Assembly (NCBI GenBank): GCA_025454075.1
Contig: JALOPD010000057.1
Location: 1 to 16,649, forward strand
Origin: Desulfobacterales bacterium
GTDB taxonomy: Bacteria; Desulfobacterota; Desulfobacteria; Desulfobacterales; UBA2174_A
Reading direction: 5' to 3'
DNA: 16,649 bases
Shown: positions 3,403 to 16,378 of the stretch, one piece after another
Numbering within the stretch: position 1 is the stretch's first letter
Layout of the letters: each line of letters begins with the position of its first letter
Notes under the pieces: model-generated
What the model was told of the DNA's origin: nothing
The model's input: the letters and a program-made list of their open reading frames with translations, nothing else
Databases searched by the model: none
Made by a program: the position numbers and the translations under genes

Positions 3403-5856
3403 ATGACCGTTAATGTGACCGCATTTGCCGCACCCGCCATCGAAGTCGCCGTGGCCATGCCCGTTCGCGGGACCTTCACCTACGGCGTGCCGGAGCCGTT
3501 CGTCTTGGCGGCCGTTCCCGGTGTGCGCGTGCTGGCGCCGTTCGGCCGCCGCCGGGCGACCGGCTACATCCTGGGCCGGGGCGGCTCCCCCGGGCAGAAG
3601 GAGATCAAGCCCATCCTGGACATCCTGGATGAAAGCCCGGTCTTTCCGGCATCCATGATCCCTTTCTTTCGCTGGACGGCCGATTACTACAAACACCCTC
3701 TCGGCGAGGTCATTGAGGCCGCGCTGCCGGGCGGCATGACCTTCGTTGACTGCGCGGCCTTCAGCATCACGGAAAAAGGCCGCCGGCAGCTGGACGGCGG
3801 CGGGTTGACCGAGCTTGAGCGCCGGGTCCTGGACCGGCTCGCCCGCGCCCGGCTTCGGGCGCGCGAGCTTCGGAAGCAGGTGGGGCAGGAGGTGCCCGGG
3901 CCGCTGCTCTCCGCTCTCGAGCGCCGGGGGCTGTTGGCGCGGCAGGTGCTTTTGCGGGGGGGAGCGGCCAAGCCGCTGCAGGAACGCTGGGTGCGGGCGG
4001 GGGCCGCGCCGCCCTCGGGCGGGCTGTCCCCGAAGAAGCGCGCCGTCTTAGAGACGCTCCTCTCCGCCGGAGAGCTGCCGGTAAGCGAGCTGGCCGCCCG
4101 CGTCCCGCGCGCCGCGGCGCACCTGCGGGCGCTCGAGCAGGCGGGACACCTGGCGATCTTCAGCCGCAGGCTCTACCGGGACCCTTTCGGTGAGCCGATC
4201 CCTCCGGACGCCCCCCCCACCCTCACCGCGGCCCAGGACGCGGCGGTGAAAAATGTCTGCGCGGCGCTCGGGAAGGGGTTTCGCACCTTTCTGCTGAAAG
4301 GCGTCACGAGCAGCGGCAAGACCGAGGTCTACATGCGGCTGGCGGCCGAGGCCGTGGCCTCCGGCCGTTCCGCGCTCGTCCTGGTGCCCGAGATCGCCCT
4401 CATCAGCCAGACCGAGCGCCGGTTCCGCGCCCGCTTCGGGGAGCGGATCGCCGTGCTGCACAGCGCGCTTTCCGGGGGCGAACGGCTCGACCAGTGGACC
4501 CGCATCCTGCGGGGGGAGGCCCGGATCGCGATCGGCGTCCGTTCGGCGGTCTTCGCGCCCTTTTCCGACCTCGGGGTCATCATCGTCGACGAGGAGCATG
4601 ACGCCTCTTACAAGCAGGAGGGAGGTCTGCACTACAGCGCGCGCGATCTCGCGGTGGTCAGGGCGCAGCAGCTCAAGGCCGTGGCCCTTCTGGGCTCGGC
4701 CACGCCCTCGCTCCAGTCCTATTACAATGTGCGGACCGGAAAATACACGGAGCTGGCCCTGCCGCAGCGCATCGAGGAACGCCCCCTGCCCGATATCCGG
4801 GTGGTGGACCTGAGGCAGCTCCGGGACCTGCGCGGCCCGGGGCGCTTCATCAGCGACGAGCTGAAACACGCCATGGCCGAAACCCTGTCGCGCGGCGAGC
4901 AGGCGCTGCTGTTCCTGAACCGGCGGGGCTACGCCAGCTTCCCGGTGTGCGCCGCCTGCGGCAGCTCGCTGCGCTGCCGGCACTGCGACATCTCCCTCAC
5001 GCTGCACCAGGCGGCCGAGGCCTACCGGTGCCATTATTGCGGGTACAGCCGGCCGGCCACGGCCGTCTGCGACGCGTGCGGCTCCGGCAAGATCAAGCGG
5101 CTGGGCATGGGCACCGAAAAGGTGGAAGCGGCCGTTCGGGCCCTTTTCCCGCAGGCGCGCATCGCGCGCATGGACCACGACACCACCCGCCGGAAGGGCA
5201 GCATCCTGAACCTTCTGAAGGGCCTGCGCGAGAGGACCGTCGATGTGCTGGTCGGCACCCAGATGGTGGCCAAGGGGCACGATTTCCCGGCCATCACCCT
5301 GGTGGGCATCATCTGCGCCGACCTGTCGCTCAGCTTCCCGGATTTCCGGGCCGGCGAACGGACGTTTCAGCTGCTGGCGCAGGTGGCCGGCCGCGCCGGG
5401 CGCGGCGAGCGGCCGGGCCAGGTCATTCTCCAGACCTACAACCCGGAGAACTTCAACATCCGGGCCGCCCGCGATCAGGACTTCGAGGCTTTCTACGAAA
5501 AGGAAATCGGTTTCCGCAAGGCCTTGAGCTACCCGCCGGTGGCGCGCATGATCCAGCTGCGGATCTCCGGCCGGGACCCGCAGCGCACGCGGCAGTCGGC
5601 CGAGCGGCTGGGGGGCTGCTGCCGTGCGCTCAAGGCGGCGGAGCCGGAGAACTTCGCCGCGCTGGACATCCTGGGGCCGGCCGAAGCCGCTCTGGCACGC
5701 ATCGCCGGCAACTTTCGCTGGCAGGTTCTGCTGAAATCCCTGAGCGGCGGGGCCCTGCACCGGTTCATGGACCGGCTGATCGCCGACCATCCCAAGGTCT
5801 TCGCCGCCCGTTCCGAAAGGGTCGTGATCGATGTGGACCCGTTCTTCATGATGTAA
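3403..5856 (+). CDS. priA: Primosomal protein N' (replication restart helicase PriA)
   Basis: PriA is the 3'-to-5' superfamily 2 helicase that recognises stalled replication forks and reloads the replicative helicase. The 817-residue product has the full set of family features: an N-terminal DNA-binding domain (VAVAMPVRGTFTYGVP), Walker A in GVTSSGKTE (301-309), the DEEH box (396-399), and the zinc module with eight Cys (516, 519, 525, 528, 543, 546, 556, 559). The helicase C-terminal motifs GTQMVAKGHDFP and QVAGRAGRGERPGQV follow. The length is at the long end of the family, with an insertion of about 100 residues before Walker A. The ATG gives the expected N-terminus but has only a weak ribosome site. 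It is a complete single gene with no visible partners in the primosome nearby. Confidence 0.97.
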   Translation: MTVNVTAFAAPAIEVAVAMPVRGTFTYGVPEPFVLAAVPGVRVLAPFGRRRATGYILGRGGSPGQKEIKPILDILDESPVFPASMIPFFRWTADYYKHPLGEVIEAALPGGMTFVDCAAFSITEKGRRQLDGGGLTELERRVLDRLARARLRARELRKQVGQEVPGPLLSALERRGLLARQVLLRGGAAKPLQERWVRAGAAPPSGGLSPKKRAVLETLLSAGELPVSELAARVPRAAAHLRALEQAGHLAIFSRRLYRDPFGEPIPPDAPPTLTAAQDAAVKNVCAALGKGFRTFLLKGVTSSGKTEVYMRLAAEAVASGRSALVLVPEIALISQTERRFRARFGERIAVLHSALSGGERLDQWTRILRGEARIAIGVRSAVFAPFSDLGVIIVDEEHDASYKQEGGLHYSARDLAVVRAQQLKAVALLGSATPSLQSYYNVRTGKYTELALPQRIEERPLPDIRVVDLRQLRDLRGPGRFISDELKHAMAETLSRGEQALLFLNRRGYASFPVCAACGSSLRCRHCDISLTLHQAAEAYRCHYCGYSRPATAVCDACGSGKIKRLGMGTEKVEAAVRALFPQARIARMDHDTTRRKGSILNLLKGLRERTVDVLVGTQMVAKGHDFPAITLVGIICADLSLSFPDFRAGERTFQLLAQVAGRAGRGERPGQVILQTYNPENFNIRAARDQDFEAFYEKEIGFRKALSYPPVARMIQLRISGRDPQRTRQSAERLGGCCRALKAAEPENFAALDILGPAEAALARIAGNFRWQVLLKSLSGGALHRFMDRLIADHPKVFAARSERVVIDVDPFFMM

Positions 5857-5964: not shown

Positions 5965-5993
5965 TTGACTTTGTGCAGGCCTCCACCTAAAAT
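5965..5993 (+). promoter_or_regulatory. Strong sigma-70-type promoter
   Basis: TTGACT (5965-5970) and TAAAAT (5988-5993) are separated by 17 nt, each matching consensus at five of six positions. Start of transcription would be near 6000, about 33 nt before the DUF1573 start codon. It separates this unit from priA. Confidence 0.65.
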
Positions 5994-6032
5994 TCAGTGT
6001 TCAAGCGTCAACGCTGCAAAGGAGAGCGCGGA

Positions 6033-6779
6033 ATGTACGTGAAACGAATAATGGTTTTCGGACTGCTGGCGGTGGTGGTCGCGGGGTGGGGCGTCTTTCC
6101 GCCGGCCGCGGCGCAGACCCTTGCGGGCGCCGGTGATGCCCCGGCCGTGTTCTTCCCGGAAAAGGCCTTCGAATTCGCGCCGGTGATCGACGGCGTCAGC
6201 GTCGTGCACGATTTCGTCGTTTTCAACAAGGGCACGGCGCCCCTGCAGATCAGCAACGTGCGGACCGGCTGAGGGTGCGCGGCCGTCTCCTTCCCGAGAC
6301 AGATCCCCGCCGGCGGCGAGGGAAAAATCAGCATCAAGGTCGACACATCGGGCTACGGCGGAAGAAAGCTGGAGAAGTCCGCCGAGGTCCTTTCCAACGA
6401 CCCCAAAGAGCCCGTGGTGCAGCTGGCGATCGCCGGCACGGTGGACCGGTTTGCCGCCATCAACCCGCGCATGTTGAACCTGCGAGGGACGGCCGGCGAA
6501 AAACTGCAGGGCACCGTGACCATCGTGCCCGAAGAGAAATACCCCTTCAAGGTGCTCGGCGCCCGCTCCCGCGAGGGGAAGCTCGCGACGAGCCTGAGCG
6601 AGGTCAAGGAGAACGGCCGGACGGCGTATGCCGTCGTCGTGGAAAACCTGAAGGCCGAAGCCGGGTCCTTCAACGACACGGTGGTGTTGAAAACCGACAG
6701 CCCCCTCCAGCCGGAGCTCGATGTGCGGGTGTTCGTCTACCTGCGGGCGGCGCCGCCGGCGGAAAAGAAGGCCCAGTGA
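6033..6779 (+). CDS. DUF1573 protein with in-frame TGA, candidate selenoprotein
   Basis: Read through the single TGA at 6270-6272, this is a 248-residue exported protein. The ATG at 6033 has AAAGGAG about 8 nt upstream. A signal peptide ends near PPAAAQ (about residue 33). The DUF1573 domain follows (about 45-145), an Ig-like fold related to ASH/hydin domains. It runs through NKGTAPLQISNVRTG, then the TGA, then GC, and continues in the same frame as IPAGGEGKI and DTSGYGGRKL. The family normally has Cys-Gly-Cys here, so the TGA replaces the first Cys (residue 80) and Cys82 is kept. The C-terminal half is a second beta domain. The next gene starts one base after the stop. Selenocysteine insertion is the favoured reading; a nonsense mutation or sequencing error is the alternative. 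The molecular role of DUF1573 is unknown. Confidence 0.75.
6270..6272 (+). other. In-frame TGA, possible selenocysteine codon
   Basis: This TGA is the only stop in an otherwise continuous frame of 249 codons. It sits at the first Cys of the conserved Cys-Gly-Cys of DUF1573 proteins, in the context RTG-TGA-GC. TGA replacing a conserved redox-type Cys is the usual signature of a selenocysteine codon. Confidence 0.55.
6279..6310 (+). promoter_or_regulatory. SECIS-like hairpin after the TGA
   Basis: GTCTC (6285-6289) pairs with GAGAC (6296-6300) around a CTTCCC loop, and GCGG (6279-6282) pairs with CCGC (6307-6310) across an asymmetric internal loop. The apical loop begins 18 nt after the TGA, inside the range known for bacterial SECIS elements. 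The loop has no G in its first two positions, unlike the canonical bacterial form, so support is only partial. Confidence 0.3.
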
Positions 6780-6780
6780 C

Positions 6781-7398
6781 ATGAGGGACGTTCGCGTGGT
6801 GGCGTTCGACTGCGACGGCGTGCTGTTCGACACGCTCGAGGCCAACCGGCACTACTACAACCACATCCTGCAGCATTTCGGGCGGCCGCTCATGACCCCC
6901 GGGCAGCTGCGCTTCGTCCACGCCCACACCGTTCAGCAGGCCCTGGAGCATCTGCTCGAAGACGACGCGCAGCGGCAGGCGGCGCACGCCTTCCGCAAGA
7001 CGATCGACTACGGCGGGTTCCTCAAGCACCTGACCATCGAGCCGCACCTGGTCGCGCTGCTGGATTGGATGCGCGGGAAATTCAAAACCGCCATCGCCAC
7101 CAACCGCACCGACACGATGAACCGCCTGCTGCGCGAGTTCGGCCTCGCGGACCGGTTCGACCTCGTGGTCACCTCCCTCGATGTGGAGCGGCCGAAGCCC
7201 TTCCCGGACCCGCTGTTCAAGATTCTCGCGCAGTTCAAGGCCGCACCGCGCCAATCGCTGTTTGTCGGGGATTCGGAAGTGGACGAAAACACCGCCCGGG
7301 CCGCCGGGGTCCCTTTCGTCGCCTACTGCAACCCGTCGCTGCAGGCCGATTATCACATCGACAGTTTGAAAGATCTCAGGCCGCTGCTGGAAAGTTGA
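6781..7398 (+). CDS. HAD-family phosphatase
   Basis: This 205-residue protein is a haloacid dehalogenase-type hydrolase of the phosphoglycolate phosphatase-like (HAD-IA) group. Motif I is FDCDGVLFDT with the nucleophile Asp10 and acid/base Asp12. Motif II is the Thr in IATNRT, motif III is Lys139 in ERPKPFPDP, and motif IV is GDSEVD with Asp164 and Asp168. All catalytic positions are intact, and a helical cap lies between motifs I and II (about residues 18-85). It is cytoplasmic and Mg-dependent; the phosphate ester is not predictable, although 2-phosphoglycolate or a nucleotide-like substrate is typical. It starts one base after the DUF1573 stop, so it is translationally coupled and shares that promoter. 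No functional link between the two is obvious. Confidence 0.92.
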   Translation: MRDVRVVAFDCDGVLFDTLEANRHYYNHILQHFGRPLMTPGQLRFVHAHTVQQALEHLLEDDAQRQAAHAFRKTIDYGGFLKHLTIEPHLVALLDWMRGKFKTAIATNRTDTMNRLLREFGLADRFDLVVTSLDVERPKPFPDPLFKILAQFKAAPRQSLFVGDSEVDENTARAAGVPFVAYCNPSLQADYHIDSLKDLRPLLES

Positions 7399-7487: not shown

Positions 7488-7832
7488 ATGGAATCCGAGG
7501 TGAACGAGATGGGGCCGGGCGCCGCTTCAGATGCCTCCGAATGGCATCACCGCAGGCTCTGCAGCGACGAGAGCTGCATCGGCGTGATCGGCCCGGACGG
7601 CCGCTGCAAGGAGTGCGGCCGACCCGATGCCGGTGCGGCGGCGGGCGGGGATGCCGAGGCGCCCCGTCCGGAACCGTCGAGCGAGCCGTGCAACCCGCCG
7701 CCCGTTTCAGCTGAAACGGGCGCTCCCGACGACGAGTGGGCGTCCCGCAGGCTCTGCAGCGACGAGAGCTGCATCGGCGTGATCGGCGCCGACGGCCGCT
7801 GCAGGGAGTGCGGCAAACCGTTTGCCGGCTGA
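7488..7832 (+). CDS. Duplicated zinc-ribbon-like small protein
   Basis: The 114-residue protein has two almost identical modules, residues 23-45 and 88-110, each reading RRLCSDESCIGVIG then DGRC and ECG. Each has four Cys spaced C-x4-C-x9-C-x2-C (25, 30, 40, 43 and 90, 95, 105, 108), which suggests one bound zinc per module. The modules are joined by a Pro/Ala/Glu-rich linker with one extra Cys (68). No signal or membrane segment is present. The start is set by AAGGAG 7 nt before the ATG. It lies 89 bp after the HAD gene and may be on the same transcript. Similar single modules seem to occur in other proteobacterial proteins, from memory; the function is unknown, with protein or nucleic-acid binding the likely options. 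Confidence 0.8.
   Translation: MESEVNEMGPGAASDASEWHHRRLCSDESCIGVIGPDGRCKECGRPDAGAAAGGDAEAPRPEPSSEPCNPPPVSAETGAPDDEWASRRLCSDESCIGVIGADGRCRECGKPFAG
7551..7619 (+). repeat. In-gene direct repeat, copy 1
   Basis: This 69-bp stretch encodes the first four-Cys module and recurs 195 bp downstream with 66 of 69 bases identical. Confidence 0.9.
7699..7722. repeat. Perfect 24-bp palindrome
   Basis: The sequence is its own reverse complement over 24 bp, centred on CAG|CTG, with arms starting CGCCCGTTT. It lies in the linker between the two Cys modules and is therefore also coding. Confidence 0.8.
7746..7814 (+). repeat. In-gene direct repeat, copy 2
   Basis: This is the second copy of the 69-bp module. 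It differs from copy 1 only at the codon after VIG (two bases) and at one Lys-to-Arg change, which points to a recent duplication or gene conversion. Confidence 0.9.
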
Positions 7833-10380: not shown

Positions 10381-11493
10381 ATGAAACGATCCATGATCAT
10401 CGCCGCGATACTGTTCGCAGGCTCCCTCAGCATGGGAGCCCATGCGGCCACTCAACCAGCAACCGGAAAACCAGAGGACATGAAAACTCAATCGGATCAC
10501 CTGAAAAAAGCCACCTTCGCCGGCGGCTGCTTTTGGTGCAGCGAGGCGGATTTCGAAAAAGCGGAGGGCGTGGTCGAGGTCATGTCCGGCTACACCGGCG
10601 GCAAAAGCGAAAACCCGACCTACGAAGAGGTCAGCGCCGGACGCAGCGGGCACCTGGAAGCCGTGCAGGTCCTCTACGACCCCGCCAAGATTTCCTACCC
10701 GCAGCTCCTGGATGTTTTCTGGCGGCACGTGGACCCAACGGACCCCGGCGGCCAGTTCGCCGACCGCGGGCCTCAGTACCGGACCGCGATCTTCTACCAC
10801 GACGAGGACCAACGGCGCCTGGCCGAGGAATCCAAAAAGCAGCTCGACGTCTCCGGCCGCTTCAAGAAACCGGTCGCAACCGAAATCGTGCCGCTCGGGA
10901 AATTCTACCCCGCCGAGGACTACCACCAGGACTATTACAAGAAAAACTCGCTGCGCTACAGCATGTACCGGCAGGGGTCCGGCCGCGATCAATTCATCCG
11001 GCAGGCCTGGGGTCCGGCGGACGCCAAGACCCCCGGGCCCTCGGCCGGCTACACCAAGCCGAGCGAGGCCGAGCTGCGGAAGCGGTTGACACCGTTCCAG
11101 TACCACGTGACCCAGGAGGAGGGCACCGAGCCGCCGTTCGAAAACCAGTTCTGGAACCACAAGGACGAGGGCATCTACGTGGACATCGTTTCCGGGGAGC
11201 CGCTCTTCAGTTCGACGGACAAGTTCGACTCCGGCACCGGTTGGCCCAGCTTCACGCGGCCGGTGGACCCACTCTTCATCGTGGAGAAGGCGGACCGATC
11301 CCTGTTCATGGTGCGGACGGAGGTGCGCAGCCGGTTCGGCGACTCCCACCTGGGGCATCTCTTCCCGGACGGGCCGCCGCCGACCGGTTTGAGGTACTGC
11401 ATCAACTCGGCGTCGCTGAGGTTCATTCCCAAGGCGGAGATGGAAAAACAGGGATACGGGGAGTACCTGGAACGGTTCGCGCAAAAGAAATGA
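10381..11493 (+). CDS. msrAB: Exported bifunctional methionine sulfoxide reductase MsrA-MsrB
   Basis: This fusion repairs both stereoisomers of methionine sulfoxide: MsrA reduces the S form and MsrB the R form. A signal peptide ends in MGAHA (about residue 22), so the enzyme acts outside the cytoplasm. The MsrA domain (about 43-200) has GGCFWC with catalytic Cys50 and Cys53, then GYTGG and HLEAVQV. The MsrB domain (about 228-350) has [41 protein letters not shown] and the catalytic Cys340 in [11 protein letters not shown]. The two zinc-binding CxxC pairs of many MsrB proteins are absent, and so is the usual resolving Cys (Thr in GTGWPSF), so regeneration may need an outside thiol partner. The ATG has GGGAGGAG 6 nt upstream. 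The total length of 370 residues is normal for signal peptide plus both domains. Confidence 0.96.
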
Positions 11494-14629: not shown

Positions 14630-15717
14630 CACGCAAAGCCCGCATAGACGCCGCTGGTGCGCTGCACCATATCATTTGCCGGGGAATAGAACGGCGTAAG
14701 ATTTTTTGGACTGATTTTGACCGGGATGATTTCATCGAACGGCTTGAGACGGTTCTGGCGGAATCCGGGACGCCCTGTTACGCATGGGCGCTGATGCCGA
14801 ACCATGTCCACTTGCTGCTGAGGACGGGAAATGCACCAATAGCTAAGGTGATGAGTCGGCTATTGAGTGGATACGCGGGCAGTTTCAACCGGCGGCATCG
14901 CCGATTGGGTCACTTGTTTCAAAACCGCTATAAATCTATCCTGTGTCAGGAAGATTCCTATCTGCTGGAACTGGTGCGCTATATTCACCTTAATCCGTTA
15001 CGAGCCGAGTTGGCAGCAACGATGGATGAATTGGAGCGATACCGTTTCAGCGGCCACAGCACTTTGATGGGGCACCAGAACCACGCATGGCAGGATGTAA
15101 ATACAGTGCTCAAATTGTTCGGGAAACGCGCTTCCTCGGCCCGCAAAGCCTACCGTGCCTTCGTGGAAGAGGGGATTTCGCAGGGCAAGCGGCCGGAGTT
15201 GACCGGGGGCGGTTTGATCCGCAGCATGGGCGGGTGGGGTGCGGTAAAGTCTTTGCGCCGGTTGTGCGAGCATGTCAAGGGCGATGAACGCATATTAGGG
15301 GACAGCGATTTTGTGAAGTCGGTGCTGCTTGAACAGAATGAACGTTTCGACCGCCGCTATGCGCTGCAATCTCAAGGCTATGATTTTCAAGCGGTCGTCC
15401 GTAGGGTTGGAGACATTTTCAGCCTCAAACCCGAAATGGTTTTATCGCCAGGCAAACAACCGGTCCGCGTGGAGGCACGAAGCGTAGCGTGTTATTGGGC
15501 GGTGCGGGAATTGGGGATGACGACGGTGGACGTGTCGCAGCGACTTGGCATCACGCAGTCGGCGGTGACGAAGGCGGTCTATCGTGGGGAGAAATTGGCC
15601 AACGGTAAGGGTTTCCAGATGATGCCGGATGCGAAAAGAACGGGTTCATGCCGCTATCCGAATAATATGGATCGCAGCCGATATCATCCGACAGAAATTG
15701 ATTTTTCTCGCGCGTAA
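14626..15717 (+). CDS. REP-associated Y1 (IS200-like) transposase with DnaA-like domain
   Basis: The 363-residue protein begins with a Y1 transposase domain of the REP-associated (RAYT) type, residues 1-130. It has the HUH metal-binding pair His60 and His62 in MPNHVHLLL, and the block RYIHLNPLRAEL whose Tyr119 is the likely nucleophile, with Tyr112 as alternative. Such enzymes cut single-stranded DNA at hairpins. The C-terminal part (about 245-330) resembles the DNA-binding domain IV of DnaA: ARSVACYWAVRELGM followed by a helix-turn-helix in RLGITQSAVTKAV. This makes it longer than plain RAYT proteins. No ribosome site is seen. Base composition is more AT-rich than upstream genes, consistent with acquisition. 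Its 3' end overlaps the convergent nucleotidyltransferase gene by 34 bp. It appears complete. Confidence 0.88.
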   Translation: MPRKARIDAAGALHHIICRGIERRKIFWTDFDRDDFIERLETVLAESGTPCYAWALMPNHVHLLLRTGNAPIAKVMSRLLSGYAGSFNRRHRRLGHLFQNRYKSILCQEDSYLLELVRYIHLNPLRAELAATMDELERYRFSGHSTLMGHQNHAWQDVNTVLKLFGKRASSARKAYRAFVEEGISQGKRPELTGGGLIRSMGGWGAVKSLRRLCEHVKGDERILGDSDFVKSVLLEQNERFDRRYALQSQGYDFQAVVRRVGDIFSLKPEMVLSPGKQPVRVEARSVACYWAVRELGMTTVDVSQRLGITQSAVTKAVYRGEKLANGKGFQMMPDAKRTGSCRYPNNMDRSRYHPTEIDFSRA

Positions 15718-16013
15718 ATAGTCACACCTGATTTTGTGATTTCCTTCAGTAATCCACTTTGGTCATTCAGTTCCTCCAAAGCCACCGGCTCGATTCGGTG
15801 CTCAACATCTCGCCGGATCCTCGTCAGGCGGGTTATCACGTCCAAATAATCCCCGTCGATGCTTTCAAATACTACGGCCACGTCAATGTCACTGTCTTCC
15901 CGGGCCGTGCCTTTTGCGTACGAGCCAAAGAGAATGACTTTCTTGACATCAAAGTCATGCCGAACGCGCTCGGCATATTTTTTCACTGATTCAATAGCTG
16001 CTGTTTTATCCAT
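15684..16013 (-). CDS. MNT-type nucleotidyltransferase (antitoxin-like)
   Basis: This 109-residue protein is a minimal nucleotidyltransferase. It has the motif FGSYAKGTAREDSDIDVAVV, with Gly30, Ser31 and the two metal-binding Asp42 and Asp44. In the MntA/HepT toxin-antitoxin systems such an enzyme adds AMP to its HEPN partner and neutralises it. The partner gene lies directly upstream and overlaps by 31 bp, and GAGG 10 nt before the ATG lies inside that gene, so translation is coupled. The last residues (about 99-109) are encoded across the end of the convergent transposase gene, so the C-terminus may have been changed by insertion of that element. Catalytic residues appear intact. Whether this pair is toxin-antitoxin or another MNT-HEPN function is not shown. 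Confidence 0.9.
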   Translation of the reverse strand: MDKTAAIESVKKYAERVRHDFDVKKVILFGSYAKGTAREDSDIDVAVVFESIDGDYLDVITRLTRIRRDVEHRIEPVALEELNDQSGLLKEITKSGVTIYAREKSISVG

Positions 16014-16378
16014 GTGAACAAATCCTCGGTGCGTTCAAAGATGGATTTGCACCGGTCGTCGGTTAGCGAGCGGAACAATTGATCCTTCCGGGTCGGGTAC
16101 CGCGCTTCGACATTGAGAGGCCCCAGAACATCAAGCAGGCTCTTCTGCGCTTCATCCATACTGTCGTAAAGACCGCTTTGACTGGCGATTACGCTTAGAT
16201 TGTGGGTGTGGGGAGGTGTATCTTTTCGAGAAAACTGATAATGCCCTTTAAGGGCTTTCTCGACGACTTGATGGCACATGAACCCGACATACAACAACCG
16301 CTTGCTGGATAACATGACCTTGGCGGTTTCGAGATCGTACTCCGCAAGCTCGATCCAATAGCGTATTTTCTGATCCAT
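15983..16378 (-). CDS. HEPN-domain protein (toxin-like partner)
   Basis: The 131-residue protein is all-helical and matches the HEPN family: an N-terminal YWIELAEYDLETAKVML, the block VGFMCHQVVEKALKGHY, the segment TPPHTHNLSVIA, and EARYPTRK. HEPN proteins are often RNases or bind nucleotides. The catalytic R-x4-6-H motif of HepT toxins is not at its usual late position; an R-x5-H occurs earlier (Arg51 to His57) in the TPPHTHNL region, which is conserved for another reason. The YPTRK subgroup is often paired with a nucleotidyltransferase, as here. The first gene of the pair, it starts at an ATG without a ribosome site. A toxin role is possible, not demonstrated. Confidence 0.9.
   Translation of the reverse strand: MDQKIRYWIELAEYDLETAKVMLSSKRLLYVGFMCHQVVEKALKGHYQFSRKDTPPHTHNLSVIASQSGLYDSMDEAQKSLLDVLGPLNVEARYPTRKDQLFRSLTDDRCKSIFERTEDLFTWIKQQLLNQ

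Follow-up and report, generated by a model that had tools for sequence, protein, structure and literature searches.

The question raised by the locus at positions 6033-6779 of the window (i.e., the whole stretch of 16,649 nucleotides analyzed here) is whether the TGA interrupting an otherwise intact DUF1573 gene encodes selenocysteine (Sec), and by means of which signal in the mRNA. The reading we adopt, to which we give a probability of about 0.85, is that the gene encodes an exported DUF1573 protein consisting of two Ig-like domains, in which UGA codon 80 is translated as Sec in a U-G-C motif, and that the SECIS element responsible comprises two hairpins and extends from the UGA to about position +53. 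RNA positions are numbered here from the U of the UGA, which is taken as 0.

The DUF1573 Reading Frame and Its Internal TGA

The following features of the gene and its surroundings are used below.

5965..5993, + strand: promoter-like site TTGACT-17-TAAAAT (scan for the sigma-70-like consensus)
6020..6024, + strand: ribosome-binding site AGGAG (sequence)
6033..6779, + strand: predicted DUF1573 selenoprotein gene, 248 residues including Sec80 (read-through frame, Pfam, homologues)
6270..6272, + strand: UGA codon 80, very probably the selenocysteine of the U-G-C motif (TGA/Cys alternation in relatives)
3403..5856, + strand: priA, conserved upstream neighbor (Pfam)
6781..7398, + strand: HAD_2 hydrolase gene, conserved neighbor (Pfam)

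The preliminary description of this DNA placed a single TGA at the first Cys of a Cys-Gly-Cys motif, followed by a continuation of 168 codons, and both statements were confirmed: the frame contains exactly one internal TGA, at codon 80 (6270-6272), within the context ...VRTG-U-G-C-AAVSF..., and codons 81-248 precede the closing TGA. The read-through protein matches PF07610 (DUF1573) over residues 41-137 (E 6e-17; 61.8 bits, as against a curated cut-off of 26.1), which means that the domain extends over both sides of the TGA. Apart from the terminal stop, the gene has no Cys or TGA codons other than those of Sec80 and Cys82.

The promoter and the ribosome-binding site attributed to the gene were also recovered. 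AGGAG lies 8 bases upstream of the ATG, and the sigma-70-like site agrees with the consensus at 10/12 positions (50 shuffles gave a mean of 0.0), this being a consensus match only. The downstream gene, which had been described as coupled, encodes the HAD hydrolase; a single base separates the DUF1573 stop from its start at 6781. Judging from the sequence, these three features would fit an expressed gene.

Distribution of TGA and Cys Codons at Position 80

Other genomes having TGA at the same codon, which the preliminary description had recommended looking for, were found in large numbers. In 112 distinct homologous sequences, codon 80 is TGA in 82 cases, TGC in 23 and TGT in 7, and no other codon occurs; these counts are not frequencies, since reported stop status had guided the retrieval of 20 Cys loci (out of 30) and 20 TGA loci (out of 82). 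The in-frame TGA is therefore aligned with a conserved Cys, and its presence at exactly codon 80 in 82 of the 112 sequences, with Cys codons in the other 30, is not a matter of chance. The initial genome scan with the read-through protein yielded 23 loci, and all of the 22 covering residue 80 have TGA there; further loci, selected for having a TGA, carry it at codon 80 in 40/40 cases. The class-wide search gave matches in 261 of 291 genomes. At least one TGA is present in 135 of the best 150 matches listed, and 15 are without any internal stop (counted by eye), the location of the TGA having been verified in the fetched loci only. The phylum-wide search matched 86 of 395 genomes at 1e-20.

It had been proposed that Cys codons in all the close relatives would speak against Sec. 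The relatives mostly carry TGA, but the two nearest genomes examined (G042 and G129; 56% identity) have TGC at codon 80, with the same priA-DUF1573-HAD gene order. These two genomes are what might suggest a nonsense mutation, a pseudogene or a sequencing error in the window, an explanation which can practically be dismissed, given that 82 of the 112 distinct sequences share this TGA, that the protein is conserved on both sides of it, and that a conserved RNA structure is linked to it (see below). The database stub most similar to the window protein (84% identity) starts past the TGA, so that TGA is probably also the codon found in the lineage to which the window belongs. A quickly built tree implies at least 13 changes of the Sec/Cys label, 6 of which are forced by starred branches.

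Among 65 database relatives, for which the proteins only were available, 56 are stubs starting at residues 84-114, i.e., past the TGA, while residue 80 is Trp in 6 and Cys in 3. These stubs and Trp entries are as expected if gene callers stop at the TGA or misread it. They might also be taken to mean that TGA is read as Trp, or that the two halves of the protein are made separately. This is very improbable: throughout the 112 sequences the alternative codon is always a Cys codon and never TGG, the Pfam domain extends across the TGA, and 9 of the 17 window ORFs checked, the DUF1573 ORF included, terminate in TGA, which is thus used as an ordinary stop as well.

Selenocysteine Decoding Machinery

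Of the sel genes, the presence of which had been named as a check on the Sec reading, those for SelB, tRNA-Sec and SelD were searched for in the relatives' genomes. SelB scored over the cut-off in 18/23 of them (G003 has in addition a SelB in two pieces), tRNA-Sec, with at most 117 candidates scored, was over the gathering score in at least 15/23, 12 of these being above 70 bits, and SelD was over the cut-off in 12/14, with a TGA of its own in 11 SelD genes. The alpha subunit of FDH was over the cut-off in 13 of 14 genomes, and 19 of the 24 matches contain a TGA by our count. Since SelB, tRNA-Sec, SelD and TGA-bearing FDH are found in the relatives, UGA very probably stands for Sec in these bacteria. 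The presence of SelB failed to predict which form of the DUF1573 gene a genome carries: it was detected in 20/24 Sec genomes and in 22/24 "Cys-only" genomes, the latter being a rough class, as G042 and G426 hold a TGA paralogue.

Taken at the level of sequence, the TGA at 6270-6272 is very probably a selenocysteine codon, as the preliminary description had proposed; this assignment is well supported by the TGA/Cys alternation, the Sec-specific RNA structure and the machinery present in most of the relatives' genomes searched. No match at the gathering score was obtained on scanning the window with Rfam, and no tRNA was found in the tRNA scan of the window.

A Two-Hairpin Element Downstream of the UGA

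In the Sec forms, third codon positions are constrained up to about +53, while they are mostly unconstrained in the Cys forms. Two hairpins lie within this stretch:

6285..6300, + strand: hairpin HP1, stem 6285-6289 with 6296-6300, loop 6290-6295 (CTTCCC, no G); evidence at the family level
6305..6322, + strand: hairpin HP2, stem 6305-6311 with 6315-6322 (bulged A at 6319), loop GGC at 6312-6314; evidence from the family and from the z score in the window

In terms of the family, HP1 pairs 15-19 with 26-30, and in HP2 a GGN loop (42-44) is closed by pairing of 35-41 with 45-52, in two registers. When the protein was held fixed and only synonymous codons were varied, the mean z score of HP1 was -2.93 in 82 Sec forms versus -0.22 in 30 Cys forms, and that of HP2 was -1.98 versus 0.01; segments further downstream of HP2 gave values near 0 in both forms. 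HP1 passed this test in 80/82 and 39/40 Sec forms and in 6/30 Cys forms, and both hairpins passed it in 73/82 Sec forms versus 1/30 Cys forms. The borders of HP1 and HP2 had been set from the data themselves, by inspection of the hairpins and of a table of values per position, and the procedure was then repeated on 40 unused TGA loci, in which z was below -1 for HP1 in 39 and for HP2 in 35, the numbers for three control segments being 8, 3, and 3.

The base pairing itself points in the same direction. With the flanking pair 14-31 included, 84% of the HP1 cells are paired in the Sec forms and 41% in the Cys forms, and the maximum reached in 1000 reshuffles was 79%. HP1 and HP2 jointly have 87.1% of their cells paired and a covariation score of 0.206, each of which was reached by 0/500 shuffles; versions of the structure slid along the alignment were 39-56% paired, and two other of the five whole-structure measures were not extreme, values as high occurring in 44/500 and 18/500 shuffles. 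Two-sided changes affect all five HP1 pairs and, in a fixed register, one of the seven HP2 pairs. Both hairpins were predicted by RNAalifold from 79 Sec sequences, with pair probabilities of 0.84-1.00, and neither of them from 30 Cys sequences. The six independent pairs available on starred branches gave 4.9 for and 0 against HP1, 2.9 for and 0.2 against HP2, and 0.8 for and 0.7 against a control segment, numbers too small to be significant alone. The HP2 register is shifted, with matching changes, in such sequences as L021, L067, and L072, as well as in L153 by eye, and the support for HP2 comes mainly from the constraint at the codon level and from these register-shifted sequences. These computations show that both hairpins are conserved in the Sec forms beyond what the protein requires, and that the Cys forms are mostly without both.

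A SECIS-like structure downstream of the UGA is thus present at the level of the family; in the window taken alone, HP2 has a z score of -1.99, while HP1, with a z score of -0.66, is not more stable than its synonymous variants, the window being one of the 2 of 82 Sec sequences in which HP1 misses the synonymous-codon test. Treating the region from +3 to +48 as a single longer fold blurred the signal (mean z -0.65 in the Sec forms, 0.20 in the Cys forms, and +1.01 in the window).

A lower stem, formed by the GGG behind the UGA and the CCC at +35, was also considered and not retained: its pairs form in 66-100% of the sequences, but two of them scarcely vary, and RNAalifold gives preference to HP2. 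This stem might alternate with HP2. Base 5 after the U of the UGA (window position 6275), which is the third base of a Gly codon, is G in 49/80 Sec forms versus 3/30 Cys forms, and this G may perhaps reflect the stop-codon context or the lower stem with the CCC at +35.

Forty genomes were searched with a covariance model built on the element, at most 140 candidates being scored, and the nine stronger hits outside the known genes, with more than about 20 bits, were examined. Four correspond to TGA-bearing DUF1573 paralogues (L149, L151, L152, and L153) and three to TGC paralogues (L150, L154, and L156), while L155 and L157 are not such genes. Several of these paralogues have features of their own. 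L149, with 53.7 bits, is a second, TGA-bearing DUF1573 gene present beside the Cys orthologue in G042, the genome nearest to the window; L151 encodes a longer DUF1573 protein with a TGA; in L152 (G218) the second Cys has been lost (U-G-A-P); and in L154 (G296), a Cys paralogue, the stretch following the CGC is expanded into a repeat of about 12 residues present in several copies (KEDIPPGGEETT).

Comparison with Known SECIS Elements and Possible Modes of Action

The bacterial SECIS (bSECIS) model, as given in PMC13188914, requires that a G occupy one of the first two loop positions and that the loop lie 16-37 nt from the UGA. The DUF1573 element resembles this model in having hairpins right behind the UGA and an HP2 loop beginning with GG, and differs from it in having two hairpins, the G-bearing one of which lies at 39 nt. 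The HP1 loop lies within the accepted distance, 17 nt after the UGA, but its first two positions are without G in 60/79 and 36/40 sequences, including the window; it starts with GU or GG in 18/79 and 4/40 relatives, in which the canonical rule is formally satisfied by HP1, though this G usually has a potential partner on the opposite side of the loop. Conversely, HP2 has GG at 42-43 in 78/79 and 37/40 sequences and attains the -7.5 kcal/mol of the model in 74/79 and 35/40, but at a distance of 39 nt, so that neither hairpin generally qualifies as a canonical single-hairpin bSECIS. A Gly-Gly in the protein also dictates the GG of the HP2 loop, which is retained in 28/30 Cys forms.

The SECIS elements of SelD (11 loci) and FDH alpha (12 loci) in related genomes are likewise hairpins located in the coding region behind the UGA, but they are single. 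The loop is GGN at +23 in 11/11 SelD loci, and GUC (11/12) or GGC (1) at +22 in those of FDH. No equivalent of HP2 was found in these 11 and 12 loci, where the z scores at +33 to +54 were +0.37 and +0.15, respectively.

The mode of action that we tentatively favor, while giving it somewhat less than an even chance, is that of a distinct bipartite class of SECIS, in which HP1, lying close to where the mRNA enters the ribosome, would fold away about 16 nt and HP2 would be presented to SelB at a normal distance; both hairpins would be needed, and they would have been kept in the Sec forms and dropped in the Cys forms in the course of repeated exchanges. In this scheme SelB would recognize HP2 by its GG loop, in keeping with the accepted loop rule; HP1, the loop of which mostly lacks G, would serve as a folded spacer bringing HP2 to SelB. 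Bridging the 16 nt of HP1 would shorten the distance between the UGA and the HP2 loop from 39 nt to about 23 nt, which is near the 19-20 nt of FDH and SelD in the related genomes.

It is less probable, but still worth considering, that HP1 alone is the SelB-binding site and belongs to a SECIS class not needing a G in the loop, HP2 being an accessory element or a translational brake. The 17 nt separating the HP1 loop from the UGA fall in the accepted 16-37 nt, covariation is stronger in HP1, its loop even begins with GU or GG in 18/79 and 4/40 sequences, and a subset of bacterial SECIS elements departing from the model is acknowledged in a 2026 review (PMC13188914). This explanation has to contend with the G-less loop starts of most HP1 sequences (60/79 and 36/40), with the one ordinary G-containing hairpin retained by SelD and FDH in the same genomes, and with the selection acting on HP2 in its own right in the synonymous-codon tests on 82 and 40 Sec loci. 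The converse explanation, which takes HP2 for an ordinary SECIS whose spacer, at 39 nt, is somewhat long and has HP1 do no more than slow the ribosome, seems improbable. The loop rule and the free energy are those expected of HP2 in this case (GG in 78/79 and 37/40; -7.5 kcal/mol in 74/79 and 35/40), and the spacer exceeds the range given in PMC13188914 by just 2 nt; but HP1 passes the synonymous-codon test in 80/82 and 39/40 Sec forms versus 6/30 Cys forms, and the one-codon insertions present in L015 and L116 lie within the HP1 stretch and leave the 4-nt link to HP2 intact (by eye).

Predicted Protein and Gene Neighborhood

The structure model of the DUF1573 protein (mean pLDDT 88) consists of two all-beta domains, the N-terminal one of which matches Ig domains of the PapD/HYDIN type, and an N-terminal export signal was read by eye. 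The U80-G-C82 motif lies between strands 71-78 and 83-86 of the model. Among the solved structures searched by sequence, the best match was 2qsv (E 0.0075). Identity to the HYDIN/ASH/PapD-like Ig domains is 12% (2qsv) and 21% (2e6j), and no function can be transferred from them.

Sec80 and Cys82, which are the only two such residues in the protein, might form a reversible selenylsulfide, and the protein may accordingly act as a thiol/selenol redox protein in the periplasm. Metal binding by the U-G-C motif instead of redox chemistry appears doubtful: such a site could be formed by the two chalcogen residues, which lie two positions apart in a protein otherwise devoid of Cys, but two ligands alone are few, and none of the fold and sequence matches listed points to a metal site, which is a weak argument. 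The neighboring genes give no functional clue. A HAD homologue on the same strand is present near the DUF1573 gene in 51/81 loci and a priA match in 25/81, some genomes being counted twice in both cases.

Three further features of the window were recorded. A small Cys-rich ORF (7488-7832, + strand) contains two near-identical copies of RRLCSDESCIGVIGxDGRCxECG. An adjacent pair of ORFs (15684-16378, - strand), recognized by eye, resembles a nucleotidyltransferase (MNT) and a HEPN protein and is toxin-antitoxin-like. The MsrA-MsrB fusion (Pfam PMSR and SelR) encoded at 10381-11493 (+ strand) has no internal TGA, although some bacteria have a Sec-containing MsrA.

A Known Selenoprotein Family and Its Signal

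The preliminary description had suggested that DUF1573 could be a new selenoprotein family, which proved not to be so. DUF1573 (PF07610, motif UGC) is listed as a selenoprotein in PMC9312934 (2022) and PMC13188914 (2026), both of which cite Zhang and Gladyshev 2007, and the Pfam domain and the U-G-C motif are the same as here. In comparison with the selenoprotein as it appears in these lists, the present data add the TGA found in 135 of the best 150 class-wide matches, the gene order, the Cys counterparts and the two-hairpin element. The family being already known, it is the two-hairpin signal that looks new: no such SECIS was found in print in the literature searches, most subscription papers, including the 2007 original, having been out of their reach.

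Since 62 of the 65 database relatives look cut or misread at codon 80, this widespread selenoprotein is largely invisible in its database entries. Its two-hairpin element, which might also be carried by other families, provides a concrete example of the bacterial SECIS elements described as departing from the model in PMC13188914, and it could serve to widen the prediction of SECIS elements.
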